Assembly: GCA_022453515.1 (NCBI GenBank)
Contig: JAJNNY010000013.1
Coordinates: 1-64,000 of the forward strand
Origin: Astrocystis sublimbata
Lineage: Eukaryota; Ascomycota; Sordariomycetes; Xylariales; Xylariaceae
Direction: 5' to 3'
DNA: 64,000 bases
Shown: positions 1 through 28,987 of the stretch, piece after piece
How positions within the stretch are numbered: position 1 is the stretch's first letter
Layout: each line of letters starts with the position of its first letter
Notes under the pieces: model-generated
What the model saw: only the letters and a program-made list of their open reading frames with translations
Told to the model about the DNA's origin: nothing
Databases searched by the model: none
Position numbers and translations under genes: made by a program

Positions 1-1468
1 GCTCGACTGGCGACTGGCACGATCAAGCACGCTGCTTGCACCGCTAGGTGTCGTTGGGGAGATGGACAATTTGCGAATGCCCAGTCAGTCTCCAGTCGCG
101 CAGAAATCAGTGTTCAACTGTCAACACGTACATAGGTACCTAAGGTAGGTAGGTACGAGTACTACTGCACCGCAGAGCAGGCAGCATCCAAAGGCTGGAA
201 GGCCAGTTGGCCGATACTGCCGCAAACTGCACTTTCTTCTTATTGCTCGGTCTGTCCAGGGCACTCACTCACTGGGCGAGCTGGGCGAGCTGGGCAGGCT
301 GGGCAGGCTTCCAAGTTCGAACCAAGGCCCTTCCGATGCCCGCTCCTACTAGAAGGTCGCTCCACGGTCTGACGGTCACACGGCCCAAGATAAAAACGGA
401 TGGCGAGATTTGAGATGTACGAGTACTCGTAAGTAAGCGTCGTTTGTACTGTTGTGAGACTCTCTGTATGGGGCGAGGGTGGTGCCCTGTCGAGCCCTGT
501 CGAGCCCTGTCGAGCCCTGTCTTCCCTTTACCTTGCAGAGCAGAAGTGGAAGAATCCATCGTCGCCACTCAGCGACCTTGCCTCGATCGTCTGACGGCGG
601 CTTCATGTTCGCGTACATAGTACATATGCAAATACTTACTAGTAGATACTACTATTTGTCTAAGCACGAATATTTGCGGATCCTTTTCGTATGTAAGTAC
701 ATACCCATACTTATGCGGATGTGTCTTCAGTCCTCACACGTCTTCGTACACTTATACTCATGCCCAGTGGCCTGGCGAGCCTAGCAAGCGAGGGAACGGC
801 ACAGCGACAATGACGGTGTCAGATGCACTGTGCCAGCCTTGGTGCGCGCTCTACTGAGTGCCTCTTTAGGTGCCTACCTAGGTACCTAGGTAGTACTCGT
901 ACGCCCGACTACCTAGGCGAGAACTACCTGCCCTCCCTCGCCCTCCATAGCATAAACACGCCATCCATAACAGGTTAGATGCATCCGCTACTGGAGCGTC
1001 ATAAATTGGCCAAGCACAGCAATCACATCACTTGGCTCGACTGGAAGCGAATTAATTGAGAATACTAGGTAGTACTTAGGCCCTTCGCCCCCACACCCGG
1101 CGAGATCTTCAATTGCAAGTTGCATCATCTTGTCTTGGGGGCCGCTTGTTATCCATGTGCACACAACCCGCCTGCGCCTACGAGCCTCATACGATACACG
1201 CCCTCGCACGCCTACTGCTCGACTGTTACTGACTAGGTAGGTAGCAGGCAGCCCTACAGGGCTCACTCGAGAACGCCCTCCCTGTCGACTGATACGCACG
1301 ATATGTACCGAGTGTGTTGTCCGATTCTGATACTGGATACTGGCGAGACTGGGGCACGCGAGGCACGCGCATGGGGACCAAACAGAGATCTTCACGCCAC
1401 CTAAGCACCAGGTACTACCTACCTACTGTCCAGTGAACCGGCGAACCAGCGAGCCAGCCGAGCCAGCC
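1..1468. other. Intergenic, outer left arm
   Basis: No gene is supported here. The stretch holds runs of GGTACCTA/CCTAGGTA words (about 130-160 and 865-905). At 481-521 a 10-bp tandem repeat with unit CGAGCCCTGT is present in three full copies plus a partial one. At 270-310 there are short GAGCTGGGC/AGGCTGGGC repeats. The end of this stretch would be the promoter and leader of the ALKBH6-like gene. Confidence 0.6.
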
Positions 1469-2253
1469 ATGGTGGCCGAGGCTGAGGCGACGAGAATGGA
1501 CGCACTGCCTGGGCTCTCGCTGCCCCCGTCCCTCGAAGGCGCACGTGTGCACCATTTGCCCTCCGCCGCTTTCTACATCTCCGAATTCATCACCGAAGCC
1601 GAAGAGAAACTCATCCTCGACAAGATAGTCTCCGCCCAAAGCCGCGGTGGAAGCAGCTGAGCCGCCGTCGACTGCAGGCTTGGCCCTCGGACCTCATCAA
1701 TAACAAGTTGGTGGATGCGCCCCTGCCACCATGGCTCGAAGCCCCCATCGTTACCCGCTTGCAGTCGCTTCCTCTCGATCAAGGCCGCCCGCACATATTC
1801 GCCGACAGCCCCCATACACGCCCAAACCACGTGCTCATCAACGAATATCCGCCCGGTGTTGGTATAATGCCTCACAAGGACGGCGCCGCCTATCATCCCA
1901 TCGTCTGCACAGTCAGCTTGGCTGCTTCTATATGCTTGAACATACATGAGATGAGGGGCGACGGCACGCTCAACAAGGACCCGTCTTGGAGGATCTTGCA
2001 AGAACCTAGAAGCCTTCTAATCACAACCGCGGATCTTTACACAGACTTTCTCCATGGCATCGATGACATTACGGAAGACACGCAGCTTTCGGAAGAGACA
2101 GTAGCGAATTGGTCCTTACTGCGACCGAGTTCACTATTCCACAGCGGCCGAAACATGCGCCAGACGCGAACTAGTCTTACCTACCGCGACGTACTAAATG
2201 TTTCAAAGCTGGATAAAAAGCTCGGTCTTCTGCTTGGCCAGCGGAAATGGTAG
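1469..2253 (+). pseudogene. ALKBH6-like dioxygenase, left copy, frameshifted
   Basis: This is the left-arm copy of the intact gene at 17911-18696. A CCC run at 1635-1637 replaces CCCC in the right arm, which shifts the frame after about residue 56 and stops at 1658-1660, leaving 63 residues. Downstream the original frame continues uninterrupted to the stop at 2251-2253, including the HxD iron motif and the C-terminal Arg-rich 2-oxoglutarate motif. The lesion is a lone homopolymer change in an otherwise identical copy, so a consensus error is at least as likely as true inactivation. Confidence 0.85.
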
Positions 2254-2274
2254 ACTCGCCTACGAAGGCCAAAG

Positions 2275-3317
2275 CTAAAACAACAGCGGTATCATCTTCC
2301 ATTTCCCTCGCACGCCGTCGCCGAACTTCTCGCTATACCACAGCTTGGTCCCGTTCGCAGTGACGCCTAGATTGACCGAGATAAACAAGCATGCGAGTAT
2401 CAGAGTCCGGTTGTACAACAGGCCTTCGGGAGCCGCCAATACCGCCATCGACAAGTAGATCAGGCATTCACAAGTATAGTGTGGGGAAACCAAGTACCGA
2501 AACATGCCCTCGTCTGGAAGCGAGTACTTCTTCAACCCAGCAAGATACCGATGGCATCGATATTGCATAACCACGCTGCGAGAAACACGGAGCTGGCAAT
2601 GATCGATTTTGGAGGCGGAAACTCGAGACCTAGACAGCTTGGGCCTGAACATTGTATCGCCCCTGCGTCCAGGTCAATACACGGTGAGGAATCTCGTAGG
2701 GGGCACAGCAACTCACTGGATCCCTCGATCCATACAGCTACACTTGTGCATAAGTAGAAGCCGTTTCCAAGTAGCCAATGGATAATCCACATGCTAGAGG
2801 ACGATGGTCGTAGGATAGCCAGGCACTCATACAGCCGCCTCGCTCCCTGCAGGCCCATCAGAAGCCAAGCCAGAAAAACCTGGCTCATAGTCATGGATGG
2901 CAATGCGCCTTTGGCAAGCTGATGCTGAACAATGAGCTGCAATACTGCTCCATTGGTGGCGAGCTGGGTCGCCCAGAATATCGTGCAACCCAAGGAGAGA
3001 ATGTAGAAGTGAATGAACCAAGAATGTGGAATCTGGCCCACCGACGTGAACCCACGTATGAGACGATAGAAAACCCCCGCGTTGGCATCGTCCTCAGGCT
3101 CCCGGTCGCTAACAACGCGGTCTTTCGAGCTCTTTGGAGATGCGGTAGCAGTATCGCGACAACTACGAGCACCATATTGTGTCAGTAGTCGCTGGGTCGT
3201 CTCTGGCACTGCGGCGACCGCTAGCACGGCGGCTGCGCTCAGCACGTAGAACAGCTGGCAGATTTCTGTCGGGCTAAGGGCCATCGCTTTGTCGAAGACT
3301 GAGGCAGCCACCTCCAT
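2275..3317 (-). pseudogene. DFG10-like polyprenol reductase, left copy, frameshifted
   Basis: This is the left-arm copy of the intact gene at 16846-17889. Two A residues at 2569-2570 pair with three T residues at 17593-17595 in the right arm. The missing base shifts the frame after Trp249 and gives a 261-residue product ending at 2532, followed by the remaining ~98 codons in another frame down to 2275. The lost part contains the SPHYTCE motif and the C-terminal membrane region conserved in steroid 5-alpha-reductase-type enzymes, so the truncated product should be inactive. As with the neighbouring gene, a consensus error is a serious alternative. Confidence 0.85.
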
Positions 3318-6300
3318 GTTGTTTGTATTCGGCGACTCGGCGAATTGGTGAATCACTGACGACTGAGGGGCATGTTGGTGGGTTGACTCGCCTCAGTTTT
3401 GACCTTTTTACATGGTGGAAGCCATGGGGAACTGCCACGAGCAATCTACTTTACCTAACCCAACTCAAGTAGCTTAAATGCATGTATGCATTTAAAACGT
3501 GTATTGACTGGCCGCCCAAGGTACCTAATCTAACCATGTCAACAACCTTTCTTTTTTTCATCTCTGGGGAGATTTCTTCTCCAACCTGCAAGCTACCTTT
3601 GTCATTGTATTTTCAAGGGCAATTCTATATAATGATCTAATTCATCACGTTGTAACTGTGAGGTTCGCAACGAAGCGTAAGGGGTAGGAGACAGGAAACA
3701 CTGTTGGTGTATTAGTTTATAGGATGGCTTGCGACTGACGCTGCCCTTAGGTTGAACGTGACCTCGACGGCTTTGTAATGACACCTCGGAGGCATATATA
3801 GATATATATATACGTACTTGTTGCCGTTGCCGTTGCTGTTCCCGTTCCTCATATCAAGTCATATGTCCGCTATGATTTGGCGTTTGAAACACCCAGTCCA
3901 ATCACGCATTCCCATCAATAGCAGCCTAACTCCGCTCTCTCTGTCTCTGGCGAGTAACTCCTTGTTTCGCAATGACTTTTGGCACACCTCTCGGGTGAAG
4001 AACCACAGATGGAGTCATCACCATCCTTGATTACGTGTAGCCAAGATAAAGCGTGCCGATATGAGCGGTATTCCAGTAACGTCCGACTTACTTAGGACAA
4101 ATGTTCTCTTCCTAAGCTTACTATGTTTTGCTCGTCGTTTAATCGTGCTACTTGTTCGAGCAGCATTCCTTGTATTATATCATGCGCAGGAGTACCTAAT
4201 AGCTATTACCCTGATATACTAGCTTCATGAGTTGCGAGGGTTGGCATATTCATCTCTGATATGAAATGAATCAATACTTCTGGTCCCAAAAGCCATTTCT
4301 ATTTACTGAGCGCGTAGTTCGATGTATCTCACCGCTGTTAACTTTAAGCAGTTCCTCAAGGGAGAACGGACGAGAGAGCGGGAGGAGACTAGCTCGCCAC
4401 TCTTACCTATAATATACACTCAGATGTTCTACAACAAGGTTTGGGCAAGAAAAACTTGTTGCTAGGTAGATGAAATGTTCCTGTTCATTCGCTGCCCACT
4501 AGAAGTTACAACAAAAAATACAGTTCAGCAGACAGGGTTGGACAGGAAGTCACCAGCGTTGAGATTTTACCAAGCCCACACACATCCTGGTGTTTTCATT
4601 TTGATCACTAACATGTAGGAAGAGTTGATTACTAGGGAAAGCTTTACTTATACTAGTCAGGTTTTTTTTGATTGATTATAACAATTACACATTACTAAGT
4701 ATTAGTTGGTGTCCCATTCATGGTTGCAGTTATGTGACGGCACAGAAGGCTGCCAACTTGAAGATTCAATCATCAGTGGCCACGAGTAATCATCAGGAAG
4801 CTGTGACATTGTAGATTCTTGTACGTTTGTGGCCTATATGCCTTAGCAACAAATCAACCAAATTCAATATAATGAACGGATAAGGTGTTCTACTTGAGTC
4901 TCTATGTAATATGTGTACCATGACCTCCCATCACACATTCGTAGTGTTTACCTAAGCCTTTGGGCATATCACATTCAACAACAACAAAAACAATAATAAT
5001 ATGACTTTACATTTTGTTGCGGGTTGGTGCGTTCTTACAAGACTCCGTGTGCGTCTCGAGGCACTGCTGCGTAAAGGTCCATGGGCAAGCTCTGTCACGA
5101 TTCACTCGCGTGATCGCATGTAGAAGTGATGCAAACCATCAAGCTACCAGACTGGATACCACCCTGCTGTTAGTATCATTGTGGCCTGGTATTGAATCCT
5201 AGTTTCCGACAGGCGCGCGTCAAGAAGTCCTCGATGTCAAGGTCATACCAGTGGCATGGTAAGAATATAATCCCAACACGCACTTGAGGACAACTGACTG
5301 TACTGATGTCCACGACATTCTGATTATAACCTTTATTGGAGTAATTGAATGGCTTCCGAGTCCCATGAATCGCCCAAAAAATGCCTTTATCGAGAGTAAA
5401 TAAGAACAACCCTCCCAACCCTGCAGGTTAACCTGTAGCTCTGTTTTTTAACATCGATCACGACTTCCTATAAAAACTATATTGAGAGTGGAAGTAGCGT
5501 GAGCTCGTATGCTCTGAGAAATTCGTTTAAAACACGAAGCTAACAATAGGTGGCGGCGAGCTGCCTAAAGATGGATGAAAGCTAAACATAGGTCAGATCC
5601 CAGTTTTCCATGACATATTGAATTTATATTGACGGCTGGACATCAAGCAACCGATAATTTATGCTTTTTCCAACATGGAACTTACTGAGTACTGGTCGAG
5701 TGCATTCACCATGCATGGCATGCTGATGGATACGCTGAACCTGCTCAATATACTACGACACATTGCCCACGACCACGATCTTGTAGTATCAATTCCCATG
5801 ACTGTATACTTCCTAGCTGGTGTGGTTCATTTAAATCATTTGAATGAAATGAAATGACTACGTATGCCTAGAAAGTTCCCGTTGAGGTATTCGAGATACA
5901 TACCATCATTCATGCTAATAGCAACCTTTTCTTTATATCATTGGTCCAAACCCGTTATGCAGATACTGGTCTGTAATGATCCTTTAAAGAAGCTGTATGA
6001 GAGAGCGTACGATAGCTACCATATAGTATGGACATATACCCATTGGTGTATCTTCGAATTTTCTCGATGAACAGTGTTGTTCATGAGCAATGGCCTTCCA
6101 CCAAGGTGACGGACGACCTCGCAGTTCAGGGAGTTAGAGTGCTGTAGCCAGACACGTCTGAGGCCTGCCCAGGTGACATAGGTGGAACCCGCAGTGCCGG
6201 ATAATCATCGGCTAATTGCGGGGTTTGACATCATGTCTGATTTTCCTGGAGTGCCCCACATGCCGCTCTTGAGTCTTGAGTCCAAGGGACGGACCTACCT

Positions 6301-6413
6301 AGGTGAACACTGCTATTGCTATCAATCACCCCAACCTCGAATCAACACCAGATCGACATCAAGCCAACATCACACTTTCATAGGAGCACATCGTGTTGCA
6401 GTATCTGGCAATC
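3318..6413. other. Intergenic, left arm between DFG10 and RBG1
   Basis: About 3.1 kb with no supported gene; the short frames present have no recognisable similarity. A near-perfect hairpin (10-bp stem, 2-base loop) sits at 3474-3495, about 160 bp upstream of the DFG10-like start. An AT dinucleotide tract lies at 3796-3812. A T8 run at 4662-4669 is T7 in the mirror copy. This divergent region must carry both promoters. Confidence 0.6.
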
Positions 6414-7886
6414 ATGTCGACAACTGTGGAGAAGGCAAGTATAAGACGAGGGTCGGATCGTTGTTGCTGGTATCGCTAACTGGTAAACAGATCAAGGAGA
6501 TCGAGTCCGAGGTATGTGTTCTCGGGTGCATTTTGAGTTGGCGAATGTGTGCTGATCGGCTGCATGATCACAGATGGCTCGGACTCAAAAAAACAAAGCT
6601 ACTTCGTTCCATCTTGGCCAGTTGAAAGCAAAATTAGCGAAGCTGAAGCGGGAGTTGCTCACGCCGTCTACCGGTGGTGGCAGCGGCGGCGGAGCGGGTT
6701 TCGATGTCGCCAGAACAGGTGTTGCTAGTGTTGGATTCATCGGATTTCCATCCGTCGGGAAAAGTACACTCATGAGTAGACTCACAGGCCAGCATTCCGA
6801 GGCGGCAGCGTATGAGTTCACGACCCTGACATCTGTGCCTGGCCAGGTCATGTACAACGGTACGCCTCGCCAATGGGATTATCATTACTCTTTTGCTGAT
6901 TTTAAATATTTGGATAGGTGCTCCACTGCAAATGATCGACCTTCCTGGTATCATTGAAGGAGCTAAAGACGGCCGAGGTCGTGGTCGCCAGGTCATTGCC
7001 GTTGCCAAGACATGCCATCTGATCTTCATAGTGTTGGATGTGAACAAGCCCTTAACAGACAAGCGAGTGATCGAGTCAGAATTAGAAGGGTTTGGAATCC
7101 GTATCAACAAAGAGCCACCGAACATCACTTTCAAGAAGAAGGACAAGGGTGGTCTCAATATCACGAGCACCCAGCCTTTAACCCACATCGACCACGACGA
7201 AATCAAGGCCGTGATGAATGAGTACCGAATCAATTCGGCTGATATTGCTATTCGATGCGATGCAACCATCGACGACCTAATTGATGTGTTGGAAGCGAGA
7301 GGTCGCAGCTACATACCCGTTATCTACGTCCTGAACAAAATCGATGCTATAAGTATCGAGGAACTAGATCTTCTGTACCGGATTCCGAACGCTGTACCGA
7401 TCAGCTCGGAACATGGGTGGAATGTCGATGAGCTGATGGAAGTCATGTGCGTATTGGATGCGGTGTCATGAAGAAATTGGTGTATGCGCTGACCTCTTTT
7501 CTTCCAGGTGGCAAAAGTTGAAACTAGTACGGGTCTACACAAAACCAAAGGGGAAACTGCCGGACTATTCGCAACCCGTCGTACTACGTTCTACGAAGTG
7601 TACCGTGGAAGACTTCGTGAGTTGACGTTTCCAAAACCTGCGCCGTGAATGAGCATTGTGGTTAACCGAAGATTTCCAAGTGTAATGCAATCCATCGAAC
7701 CATCACCGAGCAGTTCAAAAACGCAATCGTTTACGGCAAATCAGTAAAACACCAACCGCAACGTGTGGGGTTGTCGCACGAGCTGGCAGATGAGGACATT
7801 GGTAAATACACACTGCATCCACCCGGCGACTGATTGCTTGAGCATAAACTAATGTGTATGCCATAGTCACGATTGTGAAGAAATGA
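6414..7886 (+). CDS. RBG1: Developmentally regulated GTP-binding protein, RBG1/DRG1, left copy
   Basis: Seven exons: 6414-6434, 6491-6511, 6574-6859, 6918-7446, 7508-7616, 7681-7801 and 7867-7886, encoding 368 residues against about 367 in the family. DRG1/Rbg1 is a cytosolic Obg-related GTPase that works with a DFRP partner (Tma46) on ribosomes. Visible parts are a basic N-terminal helix region, P-loop GFPSVGKS (71-78), DLPG (117-120), NKID (249-252) and a C-terminal TGS domain ending in IVKK. The ATG at 6414 matches the family start. Intron 1 is a GC-AG intron (AAG|GCAAGT) and exon 2 is a 21-nt microexon. Two run-length differences from the right copy (7678, 7838) fall in introns 5 and 6 and do not affect the protein. 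Confidence 0.95.
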
Positions 7887-9678
7887 TTTGTCCTTGTTCG
7901 GGACAACTGCCTATTGCGCCTCGGATTGCGTGCTAAGGGGGTGTTTGGCCAATGCCGACATTGGTCAGTCACGCAGGTTTACGTGGTACAATATGATCAA
8001 CTCGCGTAGTACACAGCGCGTCTATGTGACACCAGTATAGTTGGAATGTACTCTGCGGATGTTGTGCGTCTGCACAAGGCTGGTGGACGGCTTGCATGAC
8101 CAATACACCATGACCATGGCTGCTTGCTTGTTCGGCGGTTCCAGGGACGAGGTGGCAGCCGATGCGGCAGGCCACAGCAGATTGTCAGTGTCAATTGCTC
8201 CATCTGGCAAAGAACTGAGATATTGCAGGGCGGGCATCATCACGTGAAAGTCAGTCATATGCGACAGCATCTGGGATAGAGGATGGCTCATAGAGAGAAT
8301 GGGATGGTGTCTCACATCGTGTTCCTATCACAGCCCGAACGGGAATGGGTGAGCACTGTCGACATAGTGCCGACCCAATACAATGCTACTCAATATGGTA
8401 TTGGAGGTGCACCTCCGTTGCATGGGAAGCCTGGAGAATTGTGCTCGAAAATGGCAATTGGGCACGAAAGGTTACATTATAATACGAGAGGTCTGGTCTA
8501 TCCGCATGAATAAATCACAATCCTGCGCGCGGCGAACATCCGGTCTCGGTTTTCTCACTTGAGCTCTCTAATCGTACCTTCTCAAACCTGCTTCCACCTC
8601 TGCCTGGTATTTGAATCATACACAAAACGCTTGGTGACTGCACTGACTGGGAGCTACAACATGCATCGCGGCATCGTCATATTTGAAGTAAGTATTGTGG
8701 GGCGGTGCAGCACCCCAAATTGTGCCGCATCTTACAATGATGAAATGATCAGTGCACCCAGGCGAGCCCAGGTAGACGAGGACCTGCAGCAACCGGGCCA
8801 CGTCTGCTGCGGCCGACTTTCCCGACAAGCGTGTGGGATGCAGGGCCAGCTCTTAGTGTGCTGTATAAGAGCCGTTGAGACACGCTCCACAACACCACCT
8901 GGCTGGCATACGGTGTGCTAGTACGTGGAGAAGAGCGCGCGACGAAATCAGCAGAGTGAAGTGAGACATGAATATTGCCGGTCGTGGGCTTGGGCTCATC
9001 CTATCGTTGCACGTAAACGATCGGAGCCTCTGGATGACCACCTGGGCGTCCAGACCAGTCAACGTCCAGAGTGTCCCTCCAACAAAAGGCCGAGGGTAGA
9101 CTGCCCCCTGCTCCAGCCTTTCAGAGCTCTGCTGTAGCCGCCGGCCAATGTCCACAATATCCTGCTACCTGACCTACTATGTACAATCGTGGAGAACGTT
9201 CCATACGATTTTGGGGAAGGATGGGGCGCTCTCGTTCAATCCTATCCAACAGCTGATATTTCTTGGCTCAACGATCTCGGTAGTCTTGACTAAAGCATTT
9301 GTCGCGCCTCGTCCGTTGCTCGGCTAGTCGGCGATTAGACTCGAACAAGTTTTTCTCGCTGAAAGTAGAAGCTGGTTGTGCAATTTAGGTTTTTATCTTG
9401 TGTCTCGATAGCGTGACTTCGGTAATAAAACGCGAAGTCGCAATATCCCGATGAGCCATTTCTACCGGATCTCATGTGTCCACACTGCGTACCTTACGAG
9501 CACTACACTGAACGCTCTGAGTTGTGGTGTTTGGCGATACTCCATACAGTGCTGCCGCATGGGAAAGCGCCTGCCAATTGGTAAGCTGTGGACGAGCCTG
9601 GGGACCTCCAGGATTCCCTGCTTACTCGGTTTTCCGATTTACTTACTTCTAAGTACCTAGTCACTTATGGTAGTGTAC
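7887..9678. other. Intergenic, left arm, RBG1 to central element
   Basis: No gene is recognised. On the minus strand an open frame from 9155 to 8616 is interrupted by a single TAA (8853-8855), mirrored at 11008-11547 in the other arm. A further 97-codon frame lies at 8022-8315 minus. These could be a decayed or multi-exon gene, but I recognise no domain, and codon content alone does not establish coding. Confidence 0.45.
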
Positions 9679-10484
9679 CAGGGTTGGCAAATTAGTACGT
9701 ACTAATGTTATACTACACTTTAGTATTTTAGTGACTACAGTGTAGTACGTGTCACGGCGAGCGTACTGAGAAGCTGGGACAAAGCCGGCAGCAGCAGCTA
9801 ATACTCTATTGACGAGAATATCAAGACTAAGGAGAGAAAGAGAAGAGAGAACTAGATACAGCGAGACAGTGTCTCTCTATATACGTATTGCCCTATGCGA
9901 ATCCTTTCCTCATCTAGTAGCAGCTTAGTCATGTGATAGGTCTACTGGCCGTGACAGTACGAGTACATACTATAATTAGTACTGATCTTAGGTACTACAA
10001 TTAATAAAGCAAAAATAAAAAGTTTGGATTTTTTTTTATAATATATTAGTATTAATGTAATATATTTATTAAAAGAAACTCGAAAATTATTATTTTGCTT
10101 TAATTAATTTTTCTAAATTTTTTTGTCAAAAATATAATACTATAATATACATTATCCTATTAACTACTATGTTATACATACAAAGTGAGACCTAGATCAT
10201 ATATTTAGAGTCTCGTATGCACGCCATAGACTACCATGCTAGCGCTACTAGATGAGGAAAGGATTCGCATAAGGCAATACGTATATAGAGAGACACTGTC
10301 TCGCTGTATCTAGTTCTCCTCTTCTCTTTCTCTCCTTAGTCTTGATATTCTCGTCAATAGAGTATTAGCTGCTGCTGCCGGCTTTGTCCCAGCTTCTCAG
10401 TACGCTCGCCGTGACACGTACTACACTGTAGTCAAAAATACTAAAGTTAGTATAACATTAGTACGTACTAATTTGCCAACCCTG
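9679..10484. mobile_element. Foldback (hAT-like) element at palindrome centre
   Basis: The segment begins CAGGGTTGGCAA at 9679 and ends with its reverse complement at 10484. Terminal inverted repeats run about 241-243 bp (9679-9921 and 10244-10484). A CAGGG-type terminus followed by TTGGC resembles hAT-superfamily ends, which is inference from the ends alone because there is no transposase. A 16-bp perfect palindrome lies near each end (9691-9706 and 10457-10472). The two terminal repeats differ by a substitution (CCCTA/CCTTA), a 2-bp indel near 9733 and other small indels, so they are more diverged than the flanking arms. A target-site duplication cannot be assessed because both flanks are themselves inverted copies; only GTAC abuts each end. 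Confidence 0.6.
9922..10243. other. AT-rich non-palindromic core between the arms
   Basis: These 322 bp are strongly AT-rich with long A and T runs (for example around 10008-10040 and 10080-10140) and no usable reading frame. The sequence is not self-complementary, so it is a genuine spacer rather than a hairpin tip. Composition differs sharply from the neighbouring arms. It could be the decayed interior of the element, possibly AT-biased by repeat-induced point mutation; that mechanism is inferred. Confidence 0.85.
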
Positions 10485-12276
10485 GTACACTACCATAAGT
10501 GACTAGGTACTTAGAAGTAAGTAAATCGGAAAACCGAGTAAGCAGGGAATCCTGGAGGTCCCCAGGCTCGTCCACAGCTTACCAATTGGCAGGCGCTTTC
10601 CCATGCGGCAGCACTGTATGGAGTATCGCCAAACACCACAACTCAGAGCGTTCAGTGTAGTGCTCGTAAGGTACGCAGTGTGGACACATGAGATCCGGTA
10701 GAAATGGCTCATCGGGATATTGCGACTTCGCGTTTTATTACCGAAGTCACGCTATCGAGACACAAGATAAAAACCTAAATTGCACAACCAGCTTCTACTT
10801 TCAGCGAGAAAAACTTGTTCGAGTCTAATCGCCGACTAGCCGAGCAACGGACGAGGCGCGACAAATGCTTTAGTCAAGACTACCGAGATCGTTGAGCCAA
10901 GAAATATCAGCTGTTGGATAGGATTGAACGAGAGCGCCCCATCCTTCCCCAAAATCGTATGGAACGTTCTCCACGATTGTACATAGTAGGTCAGGTAGCA
11001 GGATATTGTGGACATTGGCCGGCGGCTACAGCAGAGCTCTGAAAGGCTGGAGCAGGGGGCAGTCTACCCTCGGCCTTTTGTTGGAGGGACACTCTGGACG
11101 TTGACTGGTCTGGACGCCCAGGTGGTCATCCAGAGGCTCCGATCGTTTACGTGCAACGATAGGATGAGCCCAAGCCCACGACCGGCAATATTCATGTCTC
11201 ACTTCACTCTGCTGATTTCGTCGCGCGCTCTTCTCCACGTACTAGCACACCGTATGCCAGCCAGGTGGTGTTGTGGAGCGTGTCTCAACGGCTCTTATAC
11301 AGCACACTAAGAGCTGGCCCTGCATCCCACACGCTTGTCGGGAAAGTCGGCCGCAGCAGACGTGGCCCGGTTGCTGCAGGTCCTCGTCTACCTGGGCTCG
11401 CCTGGGTGCACTGATCATTTCATCATTGTAAGATGCGGCACAATTTGGGGTGCTGCACCGCCCCACAATACTTACTTCAAATATGACGATGCCGCGATGC
11501 ATGTTGTAGCTCCCAGTCAGTGCAGTCACCAAGCGTTTTGTGTATGATTCAAATACCAGGCAGAGGTGGAAGCAGGTTTGAGAAGGTACGATTAGAGAGC
11601 TCAAGTGAGAAAACCGAGACCGGATGTTCGCCGCGCGCAGGATTGTGATTTATTCATGCGGATAGACCAGACCTCTCGTATTATAATGTAACCTTTCGTG
11701 CCCAATTGCCATTTTCGAGCACAATTCTCCAGGCTTCCCATGCAACGGAGGTGCACCTCCAATACCATATTGAGTAGCATTGTATTGGGTCGGCACTATG
11801 TCGACAGTGCTCACCCATTCCCGTTCGGGCTGTGATAGGAACACGATGTGAGACACCATCCCATTCTCTCTATGAGCCATCCTCTATCCCAGATGCTGTC
11901 GCATATGACTGACTTTCACGTGATGATGCCCGCCCTGCAATATCTCAGTTCTTTGCCAGATGGAGCAATTGACACTGACAATCTGCTGTGGCCTGCCGCA
12001 TCGGCTGCCACCTCGTCCCTGGAACCGCCGAACAAGCAAGCAGCCATGGTCATGGTGTATTGGTCATGCAAGCCGTCCACCAGCCTTGTGCAGACGCACA
12101 ACATCCGCAGAGTACATTCCAACTATACTGGTGTCACATAGACGCGCTGTGTACTACGCGAGTTGATCATATTGTACCACGTAAACCTGCGTGACTGACC
12201 AATGTCGGCATTGGCCAAACACCCCCTTAGCACGCAATCCGAGGCGCAATAGGCAGTTGTCCCGAACAAGGACAAA
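10485..12276. other. Intergenic, right arm, central element to RBG1
   Basis: This is the mirror of 7887-9678. The plus-strand frame 11008-11547 (TAA at 11308-11310) and the frame 11848-12141 lie in the same register, 840 bases apart. No domain is recognised and no splice chain joins them convincingly. Confidence 0.45.
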
Positions 12277-13749
12277 TCATTTCTTCACAATCGTGACTAT
12301 GGCATACACATTAGTTTATGCTCAGCAATCAGTCGCCGGGTGGATGCAGTGTGTATTTACCAATGTCCTCATCTGCCAGCTCGTGCGACAACCCCACACG
12401 TTGCGGTTGGTGTTTTACTGATTTGCCGTAAACGATTGCGTTTTTGAACTGCTCGGTGATGGTTCGATGGATTGCATTACACTTTGGAAATCTTCGGTTA
12501 ACCACAATGCTCATTCACGGCGCAGGTTTTGGAAACGTCAACTCACGAAGTCTTCCACGGTACACTTCGTAGAACGTAGTACGACGGGTTGCGAATAGTC
12601 CGGCAGTTTCCCCTTTGGTTTTGTGTAGACCCGTACTAGTTTCAACTTTTGCCACCTGGAAGAAAAGAGGTCAGCGCATACACCAATTTCTTCATGACAC
12701 CGCATCCAATACGCACATGACTTCCATCAGCTCATCGACATTCCACCCATGTTCCGAGCTGATCGGTACAGCGTTCGGAATCCGGTACAGAAGATCTAGT
12801 TCCTCGATACTTATAGCATCGATTTTGTTCAGGACGTAGATAACGGGTATGTAGCTGCGACCTCTCGCTTCCAACACATCAATTAGGTCGTCGATGGTTG
12901 CATCGCATCGAATAGCAATATCAGCCGAATTGATTCGGTACTCATTCATCACGGCCTTGATTTCGTCGTGGTCGATGTGGGTTAAAGGCTGGGTGCTCGT
13001 GATATTGAGACCACCCTTGTCCTTCTTCTTGAAAGTGATGTTCGGTGGCTCTTTGTTGATACGGATTCCAAACCCTTCTAATTCTGACTCGATCACTCGC
13101 TTGTCTGTTAAGGGCTTGTTCACATCCAACACTATGAAGATCAGATGGCATGTCTTGGCAACGGCAATGACCTGGCGACCACGACCTCGGCCGTCTTTAG
13201 CTCCTTCAATGATACCAGGAAGGTCGATCATTTGCAGTGGAGCACCTATCCAAATATTTAAAATCAGCAAAAGAGTAATGATAATCCCATTGGCGAGGCG
13301 TACCGTTGTACATGACCTGGCCAGGCACAGATGTCAGGGTCGTGAACTCATACGCTGCCGCCTCGGAATGCTGGCCTGTGAGTCTACTCATGAGTGTACT
13401 TTTCCCGACGGATGGAAATCCGATGAATCCAACACTAGCAACACCTGTTCTGGCGACATCGAAACCCGCTCCGCCGCCGCTGCCACCACCGGTAGACGGC
13501 GTGAGCAACTCCCGCTTCAGCTTCGCTAATTTTGCTTTCAACTGGCCAAGATGGAACGAAGTAGCTTTGTTTTTTTGAGTCCGAGCCATCTGTGATCATG
13601 CAGCCGATCAGCACACATTCGCCAACTCAAAATGCACCCGAGAACACATACCTCGGACTCGATCTCCTTGATCTGTTTACCAGTTAGCGATACCAGCAAC
13701 AACGATCCGACCCTCGTCTTATACTTGCCTTCTCCACAGTTGTCGACAT
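12277..13749 (-). CDS. RBG1: Developmentally regulated GTP-binding protein, RBG1/DRG1, right copy
   Basis: Inverted duplicate of the gene at 6414-7886. Exons in transcript order are 13729-13749, 13652-13672, 13304-13589, 12717-13245, 12547-12655, 12361-12481 and 12277-12296. The predicted 368-residue protein matches the left copy in every exon I compared, including the G1, G3 and G4 motifs and the TGS tail. Intron 5 is one base longer and intron 6 one base shorter than in the left copy, and splice sites are preserved. Having two intact copies of a normally single-copy ribosome-associated GTPase is unusual and follows from the palindrome. Confidence 0.95.
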
Positions 13750-16700
13750 GATTGCCAGATACTGCAACACGATGTGCTCCTATGAAAGTGTGATGTTGGC
13801 TTGATGTCGATCTGGTGTTGATTCGAGGTTGGGGTGATTGATAGCAATAGCAGTGTTCACCTAGGTAGGTCCGTCCCTTGGACTCAAGACTCAAGAGCGG
13901 CATGTGGGGCACTCCAGGAAAATCAGACATGATGTCAAACCCCGCAATTAGCCGATGATTATCCGGCACTGCGGGTTCCACCTATGTCACCTGGGCAGGC
14001 CTCAGACGTGTCTGGCTACAGCACTCTAACTCCCTGAACTGCGAGGTCGTCCGTCACCTTGGTGGAAGGCCATTGCTCATGAACAACACTGTTCATCGAG
14101 AAAATTCGAAGATACACCAATGGGTATATGTCCATACTATATGGTAGCTATCGTACGCTCTCTCATACAGCTTCTTTAAAGGATCATTACAGACCAGTAT
14201 CTGCATAACGGGTTTGGACCAATGATATAAAGAAAAGGTTGCTATTAGCATGAATGATGGTATGTATCTCGAATACCTCAACGGGAACTTTCTAGGCATA
14301 CGTAGTCATTTCATTTCATTCAAATGATTTAAATGAACCACACCAGCTAGGAAGTATACAGTCATGGGAATTGATACTACAAGATCGTGGTCGTGGGCAA
14401 TGTGTCGTAGTATATTGAGCAGGTTCAGCGTATCCATCAGCATGCCATGCATGGTGAATGCACTCGACCAGTACTCAGTAAGTTCCATGTTGGAAAAAGC
14501 ATAAATTATCGGTTGCTTGATGTCCAGCCGTCAATATAAATTCAATATGTCATGGAAAACTGGGATCTGACCTATGTTTAGCTTTCATCCATCTTTAGGC
14601 AGCTCGCCGCCACCTATTGTTAGCTTCGTGTTTTAAACGAATTTCTCAGAGCATACGAGCTCACGCTACTTCCACTCTCAATATAGTTTTTATAGGAAGT
14701 CGTGATCGATGTTAAAAAACAGAGCTACAGGTTAACCTGCAGGGTTGGGAGGGTTGTTCTTATTTACTCTCGATAAAGGCATTTTTTGGGCGATTCATGG
14801 GACTCGGAAGCCATTCAATTACTCCAATAAAGGTTATAATCAGAATGTCGTGGACATCAGTACAGTCAGTTGTCCTCAAGTGCGTGTTGGGATTATATTC
14901 TTACCATGCCACTGGTATGACCTTGACATCGAGGACTTCTTGACGCGCGCCTGTCGGAAACTAGGATTCAATACCAGGCCACAATGATACTAACAGCAGG
15001 GTGGTATCCAGTCTGGTAGCTTGATGGTTTGCATCACTTCTACATGCGATCACGCGAGTGAATCGTGACAGAGCTTGCCCATGGACCTTTACGCAGCAGT
15101 GCCTCGAGACGCACACGGAGTCTTGTAAGAACGCACCAACCCGCAACAAAATGTAAAGTCATATTATTATTGTTTTTGTTGTTGTTGAATGTGATATGCC
15201 CAAAGGCTTAGGTAAACACTACGAATGTGTGATGGGAGGTCATGGTACACATATTACATAGAGACTCAAGTAGAACACCTTATCCGTTCATTATATTGAA
15301 TTTGGTTGATTTGTTGCTAAGGCATATAGGCCACAAACGTACAAGAATCTACAATGTCACAGCTTCCTGATGATTACTCGTGGCCACTGATGATTGAATC
15401 TTCAAGTTGGCAGCCTTCTGTGCCGTCACATAACTGCAACCATGAATGGGACACCAACTAATACTTAGTAATGTGTAATTGTTATAATCAATCAAAAAAA
15501 CCTGACTAGTATAAGTAAAGCTTTCCCTAGTAATCAACTCTTCCTACATGTTAGTGATCAAAATGAAAACACCAGGATGTGTGTGGGCTTGGTAAAATCT
15601 CAACGCTGGTGACTTCCTGTCCAACCCTGTCTGCTGAACTGTATTTTTTGTTGTAACTTCTAGTGGGCAGCGAATGAACAGGAACATTTCATCTACCTAG
15701 CAACAAGTTTTTCTTGCCCAAACCTTGTTGTAGAACATCTGAGTGTATATTATAGGTAAGAGTGGCGAGCTAGTCTCCTCCCGCTCTCTCGTCCGTTCTC
15801 CCTTGAGGAACTGCTTAAAGTTAACAGCGGTGAGATACATCGAACTACGCGCTCAGTAAATAGAAATGGCTTTTGGGACCAGAAGTATTGATTCATTTCA
15901 TATCAGAGATGAATATGCCAACCCTCGCAACTCATGAAGCTAGTATATCAGGGTAATAGCTATTAGGTACTCCTGCGCATGATATAATACAAGGAATGCT
16001 GCTCGAACAAGTAGCACGATTAAACGACGAGCAAAACATAGTAAGCTTAGGAAGAGAACATTTGTCCTAAGTAAGTCGGACGTTACTGGAATACCGCTCA
16101 TATCGGCACGCTTTATCTTGGCTACACGTAATCAAGGATGGTGATGACTCCATCTGTGGTTCTTCACCCGAGAGGTGTGCCAAAAGTCATTGCGAAACAA
16201 GGAGTTACTCGCCAGAGACAGAGAGAGCGGAGTTAGGCTGCTATTGATGGGAATGCGTGATTGGACTGGGTGTTTCAAACGCCAAATCATAGCGGACATA
16301 TGACTTGATATGAGGAACGGGAACAGCAACGGCAACGGCAACAAGTACGTATATATATATCTATATATGCCTCCGAGGTGTCATTACAAAGCCGTCGAGG
16401 TCACGTTCAACCTAAGGGCAGCGTCAGTCGCAAGCCATCCTATAAACTAATACACCAACAGTGTTTCCTGTCTCCTACCCCTTACGCTTCGTTGCGAACC
16501 TCACAGTTACAACGTGATGAATTAGATCATTATATAGAATTGCCCCTTGAAAATACAATGACAAAGGTAGCTTGCAGGTTGGAGAAGAAATCTCCCCAGA
16601 GATGAAAAAAAGAAAGGTTGTTGACATGGTTAGATTAGGTACCTTGGGCGGCCAGTCAATACACGTTTTAAATGCATACATGCATTTAAGCTACTTGAGT

Positions 16701-16845
16701 TGGGTTAGGTAAAGTAGATTGCTCGTGGCAGTTCCCCATGGCTTCCACCATGTAAAAAGGTCAAAACTGAGGCGAGTCAACCCACCAACATGCCCCTCAG
16801 TCGTCAGTGATTCACCAATTCGCCGAGTCGCCGAATACAAACAAC
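13750..16845. other. Intergenic, right arm between RBG1 and DFG10
   Basis: This is the mirror of 3318-6413, with no supported gene. It contains the T7 (A7 at 15494-15500) and C4 (16543-16546) alleles of two run-length differences, the AT tract near 16350 and the promoter hairpin near 16668-16689. Confidence 0.6.
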
Positions 16846-17889
16846 ATGGAGGTGGCTGCCTCAGTCTTCGACAAAGCGATGGCCCTTAGCCCGACAGAAA
16901 TCTGCCAGCTGTTCTACGTGCTGAGCGCAGCCGCCGTGCTAGCGGTCGCCGCAGTGCCAGAGACGACCCAGCGACTACTGACACAATATGGTGCTCGTAG
17001 TTGTCGCGATACTGCTACCGCATCTCCAAAGAGCTCGAAAGACCGCGTTGTTAGCGACCGGGAGCCTGAGGACGATGCCAACGCGGGGGTTTTCTATCGT
17101 CTCATACGTGGGTTCACGTCGGTGGGCCAGATTCCACATTCTTGGTTCATTCACTTCTACATTCTCTCCTTGGGTTGCACGATATTCTGGGCGACCCAGC
17201 TCGCCACCAATGGAGCAGTATTGCAGCTCATTGTTCAGCATCAGCTTGCCAAAGGCGCATTGCCATCCATGACTATGAGCCAGGTTTTTCTGGCTTGGCT
17301 TCTGATGGGCCTGCAGGGAGCGAGGCGGCTGTATGAGTGCCTGGCTATCCTACGACCATCGTCCTCTAGCATGTGGATTATCCATTGGCTACTTGGAAAC
17401 GGCTTCTACTTATGCACAAGTGTAGCTGTATGGATCGAGGGATCCAGTGAGTTGCTGTGCCCCCTACGAGATTCCTCACCGTGTATTGACCTGGACGCAG
17501 GGGCGATACAATGTTCAGGCCCAAGCTGTCTAGGTCTCGAGTTTCCGCCTCCAAAATCGATCATTGCCAGCTCCGTGTTTCTCGCAGCGTGGTTTATGCA
17601 ATATCGATGCCATCGGTATCTTGCTGGGTTGAAGAAGTACTCGCTTCCAGACGAGGGCATGTTTCGGTACTTGGTTTCCCCACACTATACTTGTGAATGC
17701 CTGATCTACTTGTCGATGGCGGTATTGGCGGCTCCCGAAGGCCTGTTGTACAACCGGACTCTGATACTCGCATGCTTGTTTATCTCGGTCAATCTAGGCG
17801 TCACTGCGAACGGGACCAAGCTGTGGTATAGCGAGAAGTTCGGCGACGGCGTGCGAGGGAAATGGAAGATGATACCGCTGTTGTTTTAG
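16846..17889 (+). CDS. DFG10: Polyprenol reductase, DFG10/SRD5A3 family
   Basis: A single exon of 347 residues. The family reduces the alpha-isoprene unit of polyprenol to make dolichol in the ER membrane, feeding N-glycosylation. Several hydrophobic segments are visible (about 18-36, 98-120, 145-157, 175-195, 239-250 and 285-320). Family landmarks include RRLYECL (160-166), SPHYTCE (278-284) and the C-terminal WKMIP (340-344). The ATG at 16846 was chosen because the 13 codons before it have no ATG. The gene lies tail to tail with the ALKBH6-like gene, with only 21 bp between stop codons, so the transcripts almost certainly overlap at their 3' ends. The left-arm copy is frameshifted after residue 249. 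Confidence 0.88.
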   Translation: MEVAASVFDKAMALSPTEICQLFYVLSAAAVLAVAAVPETTQRLLTQYGARSCRDTATASPKSSKDRVVSDREPEDDANAGVFYRLIRGFTSVGQIPHSWFIHFYILSLGCTIFWATQLATNGAVLQLIVQHQLAKGALPSMTMSQVFLAWLLMGLQGARRLYECLAILRPSSSSMWIIHWLLGNGFYLCTSVAVWIEGSSELLCPLRDSSPCIDLDAGAIQCSGPSCLGLEFPPPKSIIASSVFLAAWFMQYRCHRYLAGLKKYSLPDEGMFRYLVSPHYTCECLIYLSMAVLAAPEGLLYNRTLILACLFISVNLGVTANGTKLWYSEKFGDGVRGKWKMIPLLF

Positions 17890-17910
17890 CTTTGGCCTTC
17901 GTAGGCGAGT

Positions 17911-18696
17911 CTACCATTTCCGCTGGCCAAGCAGAAGACCGAGCTTTTTATCCAGCTTTGAAACATTTAGTACGTCGCGGTAGGTAAGACTAGTTCGCGT
18001 CTGGCGCATGTTTCGGCCGCTGTGGAATAGTGAACTCGGTCGCAGTAAGGACCAATTCGCTACTGTCTCTTCCGAAAGCTGCGTGTCTTCCGTAATGTCA
18101 TCGATGCCATGGAGAAAGTCTGTGTAAAGATCCGCGGTTGTGATTAGAAGGCTTCTAGGTTCTTGCAAGATCCTCCAAGACGGGTCCTTGTTGAGCGTGC
18201 CGTCGCCCCTCATCTCATGTATGTTCAAGCATATAGAAGCAGCCAAGCTGACTGTGCAGACGATGGGATGATAGGCGGCGCCGTCCTTGTGAGGCATTAT
18301 ACCAACACCGGGCGGATATTCGTTGATGAGCACGTGGTTTGGGCGTGTATGGGGGCTGTCGGCGAATATGTGCGGGCGGCCTTGATCGAGAGGAAGCGAC
18401 TGCAAGCGGGTAACGATGGGGGCTTCGAGCCATGGTGGCAGGGGCGCATCCACCAACTTGTTATTGATGAGGTCCGAGGGCCAAGCCTGCAGTCGACGGC
18501 GGCTCAGCTGCTTCCACCGCGGCTTTGGGGCGGAGACTATCTTGTCGAGGATGAGTTTCTCTTCGGCTTCGGTGATGAATTCGGAGATGTAGAAAGCGGC
18601 GGAGGGCAAATGGTGCACACGTGCGCCTTCGAGGGACGGGGGCAGCGAGAGCCCAGGCAGTGCGTCCATTCTCGTCGCCTCAGCCTCGGCCACCAT
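17911..18696 (-). CDS. AlkB-family 2-oxoglutarate dioxygenase, ALKBH6-like
   Basis: A single exon of 261 residues. The family are Fe(II)/2-oxoglutarate oxygenases; ALKBH6 is proposed to act on alkylated nucleic acid, but its physiological substrate is not settled. The sequence shows the PRWKQLSRRRLQ segment (59-70), VLINEYPPGVGIMPHKDG with H136xD138 as iron ligands, H196 as probable third ligand, and R234/R240 in the RTSLTYRDV motif that contacts 2-oxoglutarate. The start is taken at the ATG at 18696; an in-frame ATG nine codons later is an alternative. The left-arm copy is frameshifted. Confidence 0.88.
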   Translation of the reverse strand: MVAEAEATRMDALPGLSLPPSLEGARVHHLPSAAFYISEFITEAEEKLILDKIVSAPKPRWKQLSRRRLQAWPSDLINNKLVDAPLPPWLEAPIVTRLQSLPLDQGRPHIFADSPHTRPNHVLINEYPPGVGIMPHKDGAAYHPIVCTVSLAASICLNIHEMRGDGTLNKDPSWRILQEPRSLLITTADLYTDFLHGIDDITEDTQLSEETVANWSLLRPSSLFHSGRNMRQTRTSLTYRDVLNVSKLDKKLGLLLGQRKW

Positions 18697-20164
18697 GGCT
18701 GGCTCGGCTGGCTCGCTGGTTCGCCGGTTCACTGGACAGTAGGTAGGTAGTACCTGGTGCTTAGGTGGCGTGAAGATCTCTGTTTGGTCCCCATGCGCGT
18801 GCCTCGCGTGCCCCAGTCTCGCCAGTATCCAGTATCAGAATCGGACAACACACTCGGTACATATCGTGCGTATCAGTCGACAGGGAGGGCGTTCTCGAGT
18901 GAGCCCTGTAGGGCTGCCTGCTACCTACCTAGTCAGTAACAGTCGAGCAGTAGGCGTGCGAGGGCGTGTATCGTATGAGGCTCGTAGGCGCAGGCGGGTT
19001 GTGTGCACATGGATAACAAGCGGCCCCCAAGACAAGATGATGCAACTTGCAATTGAAGATCTCGCCGGGTGTGGGGGCGAAGGGCCTAAGTACTACCTAG
19101 TATTTCTCAATTAATTCGCTTCCAGTCGAGCCAGTGATGTGATTGCTGTGCTTGGCCAATTTATGACGCTCCAGTAGCGGATGCATCTAACCTGTTATGG
19201 ATGGCGTGTTTATGCTATGGAGGGCGAGGGAGGGCAGGTAGTTCTCGCCTAGGTAGTCGGGCGTACGAGTACTACCTAGGTACCTAGGTAGGCACCTAAA
19301 GAGGCACTCAGTAGAGCGCGCACCAAGGCTGGCACAGTGCATCTGACACCGTCATTGTCGCTGTGCCGTTCCCTCGCTTGCTAGGCTCGCCAGGCCACTG
19401 GGCATGAGTATAAGTGTACGAAGACGTGTGAGGACTGAAGACACATCCGCATAAGTATGGGTATGTACTTACATACGAAAAGGATCCGCAAATATTCGTG
19501 CTTAGACAAATAGTAGTATCTACTAGTAAGTATTTGCATATGTACTATGTACGCGAACATGAAGCCGCCGTCAGACGATCGAGGCAAGGTCGCTGAGTGG
19601 CGACGATGGATTCTTCCACTTCTGCTCTGCAAGGTAAAGGGAAGACAGGGCTCGACAGGGCTCGACAGGGCTCGACAGGGCACCACCCTCGCCCCATACA
19701 GAGAGTCTCACAACAGTACAAACGACGCTTACTTACGAGTACTCGTACATCTCAAATCTCGCCATCCGTTTTTATCTTGGGCCGTGTGACCGTCAGACCG
19801 TGGAGCGACCTTCTAGTAGGAGCGGGCATCGGAAGGGCCTTGGTTCGAACTTGGAAGCCTGCCCAGCCTGCCCAGCTCGCCCAGCTCGCCCAGTGAGTGA
19901 GTGCCCTGGACAGACCGAGCAATAAGAAGAAAGTGCAGTTTGCGGCAGTATCGGCCAACTGGCCTTCCAGCCTTTGGATGCTGCCTGCTCTGCGGTGCAG
20001 TAGTACTCGTACCTACCTACCTTAGGTACCTATGTACGTGTTGACAGTTGAACACTGATTTCTGCGCGACTGGAGACTGACTGGGCATTCGCAAATTGTC
20101 CATCTCCCCAACGACACCTAGCGGTGCAAGCAGCGTGCTTGATCGTGCCAGTCGCCAGTCGAGC
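18697..20164. other. Intergenic, outer right arm
   Basis: This is the mirror of 1-1468. It holds the same CCTAGGTA-type words (near 19265-19295 and 20010-20035) and the 10-bp tandem repeat (19645-19684). Two run-length differences against the left arm lie at 19103-19105 and 19133. No gene is supported. Confidence 0.6.
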
Positions 20165-26364: not shown

Positions 26365-28030
26365 GTAACCCACGCATCTAATTGCGGACGTTCAATGATA
26401 CCAACCTTCTCAACCTCTCAACCACCTCATTAAACATCTTCAAAACGTATGATAGCCCGAATTAAGCCTCACTAACGACTACACGCTCCTCCACAATGAG
26501 TCATTGCTCTTGAAATAATGGGATTTTCCTATGTCGTCACGGATCTACGAGTGCAACCAAATCATGACCCACGTATAGGCTTCATCTGGCTTCTCGGATG
26601 GAGTACTTGGCTTTGAATTGGCTGCCTACTTACGGCTCTCAGCCTTGGATTGGGGATTGAAACGCTTGTGCTGCTCATGCCAGCGTATATGTCAATGTAA
26701 TGTCAACATGTCTAGATATGGCCTGGAGTAGGGTGAACTGCGGACCACAGTACATTAGAAACCTTGCAAGTACATACTTGTCCCACCCAACTGACTAGAA
26801 GACTCGAAGACGACTAGATGACTTTTTAAGTCATTCTTCGAATAATTAATACCACGCCTATTAACAATGCCGAAATATGTGTCGCAGCGGCGTAGTGCCA
26901 TAGCGGAGCTGTCTTCACACAATTCAGCAAGAATGTCGAAGCGCGAATCACCTCATGACAGGTGTTGTGATACGTCCGACAAAATACCTAGATCAACAGG
27001 CCCGCGCAATGACAGTACCTAGTGGACAGGTATCACTTATTTGGCTGGCCGTTCTAACTGGGACTGAGTTGGGGGAAATACAAGGAAAAAGAGAGAAGTA
27101 GCACTTTTGAGAGTCTGTATGTTTCTGGTCTTGATTGGGCCTGGCACCTGGTAGCCGGAGGTAGCCCTGGGGGCTGGGCAGAAGCTTTGACTTGGGTGCA
27201 TGGACAGCATGCATTCAATACCGATGATCGTAATGGGCCCGAAGAGGCACAGTCGAATCACATAACCAGGCTCTCGCTCTGGGCAATATCTACTGCTACA
27301 CTGTCCAGGAACCCAGCTCGCCCAGGTCCACCACGTTCAATATATGGAGAAAATTGCCGTATTGCGAACGGGCCCCTGCATCATGATTGGGCTGCATGGG
27401 GTTGTTATCGTTCATAAAGTTTTGCACTACGGCATTGTGCAAGCCTTACCTACTCGCCTACAGAGTACGAATATATCGCAGTCCGGTGTGTCATAGGCTG
27501 GCGAGCTGGCTGGTTGGCCCTTTCTTTTTCAGCGAAGACAAAAAGCGGCTGGCCTGGTCGCGGCTCGCTGCTTGCCGCAGCTGAGACACGCGGTAAGACA
27601 CTTGCATGGTATGAAAGGTGATCAACCAATCCTATGTCTTCAAATTACGGGAACCCGAACCCGACGATCTGTTGGCTGCGAGATGGTGGAGTTAATACGA
27701 ATTGACAAGGTATGATCGTTTCCTGTTATGTACAGGGTATGAGACTGCCCCCCGACCCGAGAAAGCGACACAAGATCTGCTAGGCTTGTAGAAAGAAGAA
27801 CTCGGAAGGACAGTAGTACGTTGCGAGGTATCGATGTTCTGACTATCAGTCTCTCTCATACGATTCCAGGTGCCAGACTTCAATACACCAAATCAGCCAA
27901 CCCAGCTCGGCATGATATGAATCATCTCATGAACTATCTCGGCCATACCGTTGACTGCATTCCCTGAGAAACGCCACCCCTATACCGACCGTAGGCGAGA
28001 TCTAGACCAACGGTGAATCCTGCGAACGAA
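26365..28030. other. Intergenic
   Basis: No gene, RNA or repeat is supported in these 1.7 kb. It should hold the 3' end of the Hos4-like transcript and the promoter of the next gene. Confidence 0.5.
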
Positions 28031-28987
28031 ATGAAGACGTGCCGTCTTCCCACGCCTCTCCTTGTTGCCCTTCTCCTGCAAACAGGTTTATCGCTGGCTA
28101 AGATAGACAACGACTTCTCGCCCTACCCCCAGGGCTCGCAGGATTGTTTGTATGATGCGGCCGACACAGCTGGCTGCGTCGAAGCCGATACCGCGACCGA
28201 GCTCAATCAATGTCTCTGCAAGAATCAACACAATTTCGTATATAACACGGCAAAATGTGTCGCGTTGAAAAGCCCCTCCGATGTAGATGCCGTCTATGAG
28301 ACATTGTCGTCCAACTGCGCGGGCACCGGTGTGACCCTCTCCGTGCCGAAGCAGGCTTTCATCGCAGCAGCCGAGGCTGCCAGCCAAAGTACTTCGACTT
28401 CGACTTCGAGCTCGTCTCCTTCGGCGACAAATACCGACCCGACCACAGACCACGACTCGTCAGGCAACGATCTAAGCACCGGGACGAAGATTGGCATAGG
28501 CGTGGGGGTAGGGTTCGGCGTCGTTGTTGCCGCGCTCGCAGCGTGGTTCATATGGACGTACCAACGGAGACGCCGCTTCACTCAGCGAATCCACAGCAGC
28601 GACATGTCCAACGGAGGGGCCGGGATCGCATACGGCGGCGGTGGTAGCGGCAGCGCCGACAGAATGCCACAGTTCGCGCAGAACAACACGCAGCAAGCAC
28701 CTGCCGAGCTCGATCCCTCTGGATATGCGGCGACGGGTTATACGGGCGCCGAGGACAAGAGAGACGGGACTGGCATGCCGCTGTTGGCGGAGCTTGGGAA
28801 TTCAAGACTTGCGCCTGTCGAGCTCCCGACTCAGGCAGATTACCTAGAGGCTTCCGACAACAAAAGTCCTCAACATACTTACTACCCAGGCCAAGGCCAT
28901 CCGCCCGTCTCCCCCTCAACGAGCAGGAGTGACCTGCCGCCCCCGTTTACCCCTTCACAAGCGTCTGAGTCCGGGACATATAAATGA
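28031..28987 (+). CDS. Cysteine-rich single-pass surface protein
   Basis: A single exon of 318 residues. A signal peptide covers about residues 1-23. Six cysteines follow (QDC, AGC, QC-LC, AKC, SNC), a pattern like a reduced CFEM domain, which normally has eight. A Ser/Thr stretch (about 118-140) leads into a transmembrane segment beginning GTKIGIGVGVGFG (about 150-172), then an RRRR stop-transfer and a Pro/Gly/Gln-rich cytoplasmic tail. The architecture closely parallels the CFEM protein at 46920-47988. Such proteins sit in the plasma membrane facing the wall; a sensing or haem/iron role is plausible but not shown. The start at 28031 is the first ATG and precedes the hydrophobic leader. Confidence 0.8.
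   Translation: MKTCRLPTPLLVALLLQTGLSLAKIDNDFSPYPQGSQDCLYDAADTAGCVEADTATELNQCLCKNQHNFVYNTAKCVALKSPSDVDAVYETLSSNCAGTGVTLSVPKQAFIAAAEAASQSTSTSTSSSSPSATNTDPTTDHDSSGNDLSTGTKIGIGVGVGFGVVVAALAAWFIWTYQRRRRFTQRIHSSDMSNGGAGIAYGGGGSGSADRMPQFAQNNTQQAPAELDPSGYAATGYTGAEDKRDGTGMPLLAELGNSRLAPVELPTQADYLEASDNKSPQHTYYPGQGHPPVSPSTSRSDLPPPFTPSQASESGTYK

Follow-up and report, generated by a model that had tools for sequence, protein, structure and literature searches.

The window is the whole stretch of DNA that was analysed, 64,000 nucleotides, and corresponds to bases 1-64000 of contig C35 (810,606 bases) in the Astrocystis sublimbata assembly (42.6 Mb, 189 contigs). A BLASTN search of the window against itself gave one long inverted match, 1-20164 against 20164-1, with 99.287% identity, 52 mismatches and 85 gap openings. 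The near-perfect inverted repeat over 1-20164 that the sequence-only reading had proposed is therefore borne out. The three genes per arm in the same proposal (RBG1, DFG10-like and ALKBH6-like) were recovered as open frames and domain matches. The RBG1 and DFG10 domains were searched in the inner arm, whereas the 2OG-FeII_Oxy_2 domain of ALKBH6 matched in both arms. The features of the locus are listed below; the core element is a putative hAT-like MITE, and C29 is a second contig that carries the same locus.

1..9676, minus strand: outer arm, inverted copy of 10487-20164, containing all eight arm-to-arm indels; judged spurious
1708-2253, plus strand: ALKBH6-like, outer copy, 181-aa frame, 2OG-FeII_Oxy_2
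2532-3356, minus strand: DFG10-like, outer copy, 274-aa frame
6893-7471, plus strand: RBG1-like GTPase, outer copy, open frame
9679..10484, no strand: core, mirrored right-hand part of the putative hAT-like MITE
9679-9705 (minus) and 10458-10484 (plus): right-hand terminal repeat of the MITE, at both core edges
9750..9956, minus strand: nested repeat in the MITE (about 207 bases), outer copy
9999..10243, no strand: fold zone, centre near 10082, poor sequence
10244..10416, plus strand: nested repeat in the MITE, inner copy
10487..20164, plus strand: inner arm, agrees with the C29 inner arm; judged real and single-copy
12692..13270, minus strand: RBG1-like GTPase piece, inner arm, open frame, MMR_HSR1_Xtn
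16807..17889, plus strand: DFG10-like polyprenal reductase, inner copy, 360-aa frame, Steroid_dh
17911..18732, minus strand: ALKBH6-like, inner copy, 273-aa frame, 2OG-FeII_Oxy_2

The first base of the palindrome is base 1 of the contig, so that 20164 is a mere mirror of the contig end and neither position is a biological boundary. The proposed extent of 1-20164 is thus correct for the letters, but its outer limit is only the end of C35. Most of the differences between the two halves lie in the core, which from 9716 inwards holds 64 of the 72 differing columns listed up to the palindrome centre. Beyond the MITE, in 1-9676 against 10487-20164, only eight indels of one base each separate the arms, and substitutions are absent. 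A four-arm alignment (outer and inner arms of C35 and C29) assigned all eight indels to the C35 outer arm. Each alters the length of a single-base run; six are in runs of at least 3, and two are a doubled T. The inner arms of C35 and C29 were identical apart from two columns at a slice end, and the C29 outer arm showed two mismatches only. Judged from this alignment, the indels of the C35 outer arm look like consensus errors rather than divergence between two gene copies. Poor quality is not common to every outer arm, as the two differences in C29 show. The two inverted gene copies claimed earlier are present in the sequence, but they are not equivalent; the outer ALKBH6 and DFG10 frames are shorter, and the shortening fits the outer-arm indels.

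The AT-rich core matches dispersed copies in C176, C88, C146, C84, C85 and C148. Three of these copies (C176, C88 and C146) are intact, with the terminal inverted repeats CAGGGTTGGCAAATTAGT and its reverse, and are flanked by the exact 8-base target-site duplications CTACATAG (C176), GGGCTAGG (C88) and CACCTGGC (C146). The assignment to a hAT-like MITE is a call from these terminal repeats and duplications, which we take to be features of the hAT family. The element resembles hAT-type MITEs in its terminal inverted repeats starting with CAGGG, its 8-base duplications (in the three intact copies) and its capacity to form hairpins; it differs in that no mobilising transposase is linked to the element here, though three PF05699 matches exist. 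As single strands, two of the intact copies fold far better than shuffled sequences (z -8.4 with 100 shuffles, z -9.6 with 20 shuffles), and window positions 9900-10300 also give a stable fold (z -10.3 against shuffles). In C35 and C29 alike, the right-hand end of the MITE flanks the core on either side, and the left-hand end is not present. Copies of the nested repeat (about 207 bases) in C127 and C124 share 98-99.5% identity with it, and further matches lie in C113 and C186. A further left end of the MITE was noticed at C13:114-139, less than 140 bases from the contig start; the family may break the assembly at this place too.

The same locus is carried by C29 (37,434 bases) with a fold-back of its own. 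The unique side of C29 is 100% identical to C35 beyond 20165 over the 4.8 kb searched. A longer alignment revealed small indels within window positions 27549-31305, where C29 is without about two dozen single or few bases present in C35; these are likely consensus errors in C29. In C29 the outer arm reaches only to window position 817, the mirror of 19348, and ends elsewhere than in C35. C29 folds at native MITE base 635, where the native sequence offers a 9-base stem (ATACTACAA / TTGTAGTAT), whereas the fold in C35 is at native bases 423-432 of the same MITE copy, about 200 bases apart. In the fold-point scan for C35, base 635 scored 426.8 against 663.8 at the best position. The C35 fold point is approximate because the core sequence is poor, with 20 bases missing in 10187-10243 relative to the mirrored side. 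Two folds about 200 bases apart in one MITE copy are not expected from one inherited rearrangement.

Three origins had been put forward for the palindrome, namely a recent inverted duplication, a step in gene amplification and an assembly artefact. The first two would amount to a real duplication in the sequenced strain, inverted and about 10 kb long, with the assembly stopping in the second arm. Such an event might have arisen when the MITE hairpin underwent fold-back repair, through a breakage-fusion-bridge step or by palindromic amplification. The arms nearly identical over 9.7 kb, the hairpin-forming element at the centre and the folding of the same locus in two contigs would all agree with such an event. 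However, C29 and C35 do not share a junction, and different unique sequence on the two sides of the palindrome was not found in C35 or C29; both contigs end inside the outer arm, and no new unique sequence lies beyond it. The RIP indices also showed a RIP-like signature in the AT-rich repeats of the genome but not in the arms, which supports the artefact without being decisive. The same pattern recurs at the ends of other contigs, in one case alongside a contig that reads through, and the expected neighbour gene is located on C85/C109 (both described below). A real duplication is thus very unlikely, and neither the duplication nor the amplification option is supported.

A control locus with a through-going contig was found in C176, which reads through a MITE at 104245-105059 with CTACATAG on both sides, a perfect 8-base duplication. 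The right flank of this MITE occurs twice, in inverted orientation, in C84 (16,272 bases) and in C148 (206,916 bases). The inner side of C84 is 99.5% identical to C176 over 5.3 kb. The C84 outer arm showed 98.5% identity (4 mismatches and 16 gaps in 1,333 columns), and the inner arm 99.7% (1 mismatch and 3 gaps in 1,329 columns). The best-fit fold points in the C176 copy are native base 364 for C84 and native base 144 for C148. One through-going contig with a matched duplication, together with two differing folds, points to chimeric reads and not to one real rearrangement.

The excision of hAT elements leaves hairpins on the broken donor ends. Sequencing of such hairpins could be considered, since the central element is hAT-like; however, they are expected where the flank meets the terminal repeat, whereas the folds are found 144 to 635 bases further into the element. 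This origin has hardly any probability.

The fold-back contigs were found via the MITE and the telomere motif. The outer arm reaches the last contig base in C35, C29, C84 and C132, and the C148 outer arm was followed to 204157 of 206916. Fold-back contig ends are not confined to the MITE. For example, C132 ends in a larger inverted repeat of 37 kb, from 259224 to the last base 296260, whose centre (near 277747) consists of AT-rich, RIP-like DNA with short TTAGGG tracts. With both arms included in the count, 308 of 9,516 columns were mismatched. In the left half, 198 of the 205 differences lie in two patches, 155 in 275000-277000 and 43 in 266500-268000. A genuine diverged palindrome was considered for C132 and rejected, because the differences are clustered and the repeat extends to the very last base of the contig. 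C29, C84 and C85 are short contigs that repeat parts of C35, of C176/C148 and of C109 with fold-backs, and are candidates for removal.

The other side of the C35 MITE was sought in C109 (505,521 bases), which breaks off 62 bases into a MITE, counted from its left end. Over the 2.2 kb compared, C85 (15,999 bases) is identical to the C109 end; it reads on across the MITE before folding back, with a palindrome at 1-627. The MITE copies of C85 and C29 share 94-96% identity, with 1 to 6 mismatches per piece and gaps for the remainder. A seven-row alignment gave 14-23 differences between C85 and C29 in 306-319 columns, and 38-55 between either of them and C176, C88 or C146. Only 21 differences in 348 columns separate C88 and C146 although they are two different loci, and therefore the C85/C29 count alone is no proof of one locus. 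The flanks of the MITE, GTACAACTA in C109 and C85 and GTACACTA in C35 and C29, resemble a target-site duplication with one base different; an equally good fit was found at 2 of 43,827 window positions, by a criterion chosen after seeing the data. The true other side of the C35 MITE is likely C109, linked via C85, and a join of C109 to C35 is suggested (about 1.3 Mb).

Gene order in relatives was compared by means of a CENPB-type gene (P0121), whose frames lie at C85 5097-6867, about 4.4 kb beyond the MITE. The counts were made from the best 120 matches of each protein search, matched by organism, with contigs of equal size taken as the same. On this basis, ALKBH6 and CENPB were on one contig in 21 of the 23 organisms common to both searches; the exceptions were Xylaria intraflava and Apiospora arundinis, the matches of the latter standing for several contigs. 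Likewise, DFG10 and CENPB were on one contig in 19 of 21 common organisms, except Xylaria intraflava and Apiospora kogelbergensis. The locus numbers lie close together in five relatives, as follows.

Xylaria polymorpha: g11413 CENPB, g11415 DFG10, g11416 ALKBH6
Parahypoxylon ruwenzoriense: 003049 CENPB, 003051 DFG10, 003052 ALKBH6
Neoarthrinium moseri: 009571 CENPB, 009575 DFG10, 009574 ALKBH6
Phialemonium thermophilum: 2996 CENPB, 3000 DFG10, 2999 ALKBH6
Anthostomella pinea: 057770 CENPB, 057730 DFG10, 057720 ALKBH6

One locus number is free between CENPB and DFG10 in Xylaria polymorpha and Parahypoxylon ruwenzoriense, which is expected to be the slot of RBG1. Given the conserved order in the relatives, the gene beyond the core should be the CENPB of C85/C109, and not a second RBG1. 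This also bears on the idea that a covalently closed hairpin terminates the chromosome at this point, with the reads turning round, which would yield a symmetric form with random outer-arm ends. Beyond the fold, however, C109 and C85 supply the missing end of the MITE together with the gene expected to follow; the folds are at several points inside the MITE; and the genome has TTAGGG tracts, one of them within two bases of the C15 end. A closed hairpin end is extremely improbable.

The palindrome is very probably an assembly artefact of fold-back (inverted chimeric) long reads, real as letters and false as biology. This option, the third of the sequence-only reading, is strongly supported by the through-going control locus, the different fold points in two contigs and the conserved gene order. 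Two further grounds were shown: the mirror reaches the contig end, and C109 ends in a MITE whose C85 copy matches that of C29. From the fold onwards, the second arm of the C35 palindrome repeats the first on the opposite strand. The through-going alternative is direct at the C176 locus, and at C35 it is reached only via C109/C85 and gene order. Four points stand against the artefact: the target-site duplication at the C109/C35 MITE is inexact by one base, two organisms break the ALKBH6/CENPB linkage and two the DFG10/CENPB linkage among the matches listed, the C29 outer arm holds just two differences, and the C35 fold point comes from poor sequence. Chimeric reads appear the better source; an erroneous path through the assembly graph is a lesser variant of the same artefact verdict.

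The formation of such reads might be as follows. A strand would end or stall inside the AT-rich hairpin-forming MITE and snap back on a short internal stem, the idea of self-priming being drawn from the C29 fold. Copying or reading would then go back along the strand's own complement and yield molecules of the form 'arm - part of MITE - reverse arm'. The assembler would extend the contig end with these molecules, and the reverse arm would stop where they stop. The true chromosome would be C109 - whole MITE - C35, with ALKBH6, DFG10 and RBG1 once each. The fold-backs could also be formed in living cells, where the MITE hairpins would extrude, break and be copied back, and some nuclei or DNA molecules would carry terminal palindromes at several MITE copies with their own fold points. 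Nothing in the data calls for such breakage, and the chance of it appears slim.

Comparable artefacts have been described. Fold-back long reads were reported to be near-symmetric and to recur at the same places, with library preparation suspected, with a share of about 0.55-0.6% in nanopore data from genomic DNA and almost nothing in the PacBio HiFi data described there (PMC12870357). The present case resembles them in that the second segment has the same place and opposite strand, and in near-symmetry, recurrence and coexistence with through-reads; the account there concerns single reads, whereas the present fold-back has become part of assembled contigs, with one MITE family at its centre. 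The Pacasus report describes artificial palindromes that arise when a whole genome is amplified, and false inverted duplications in one assembly (PMC6218980). Chimeric inverted repeats producing such duplications are common to both cases; the DNA described there was whole-genome amplified. Nanopore base-calling was reported to fail after inverted duplications, with missed bases after inverted-duplicate junctions (PMC7229812). The bases lost just after the fold at window 10187-10243 are similar, whereas the inverted duplications in that report were real.

The practical consequence of the false palindrome is spurious gene records. The DFG10-like gene has two records on the 810,606-base contig of Astrocystis sublimbata, P0241 (329 aa, two contigs) and P0242 (301 aa). 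P0242 is placed on this contig only, and its gene model omits a stretch around the outer-arm frameshift. We infer that P0242 is the outer-arm copy; the two records are probably one gene counted twice. ALKBH6, DFG10 and RBG1 are each almost certainly present once in the genome. A false segmental duplication is thereby removed from a public fungal genome, and its entry into protein databases is indicated. A palindrome that extends to the end of a contig, with a hairpin-forming element at its centre, is a warning sign and should be left out of counts of duplications.

Two minor observations were made elsewhere in C35. At the right end of the contig, the last 4 kb are AT-rich repeat DNA with RIP-like indices of 1.36 and 0.71, and a telomere repeat is absent from the last 300 bases. 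Within the window, a 75-base direct repeat with 87% identity is present at 39115-39188 and 45821-45895.
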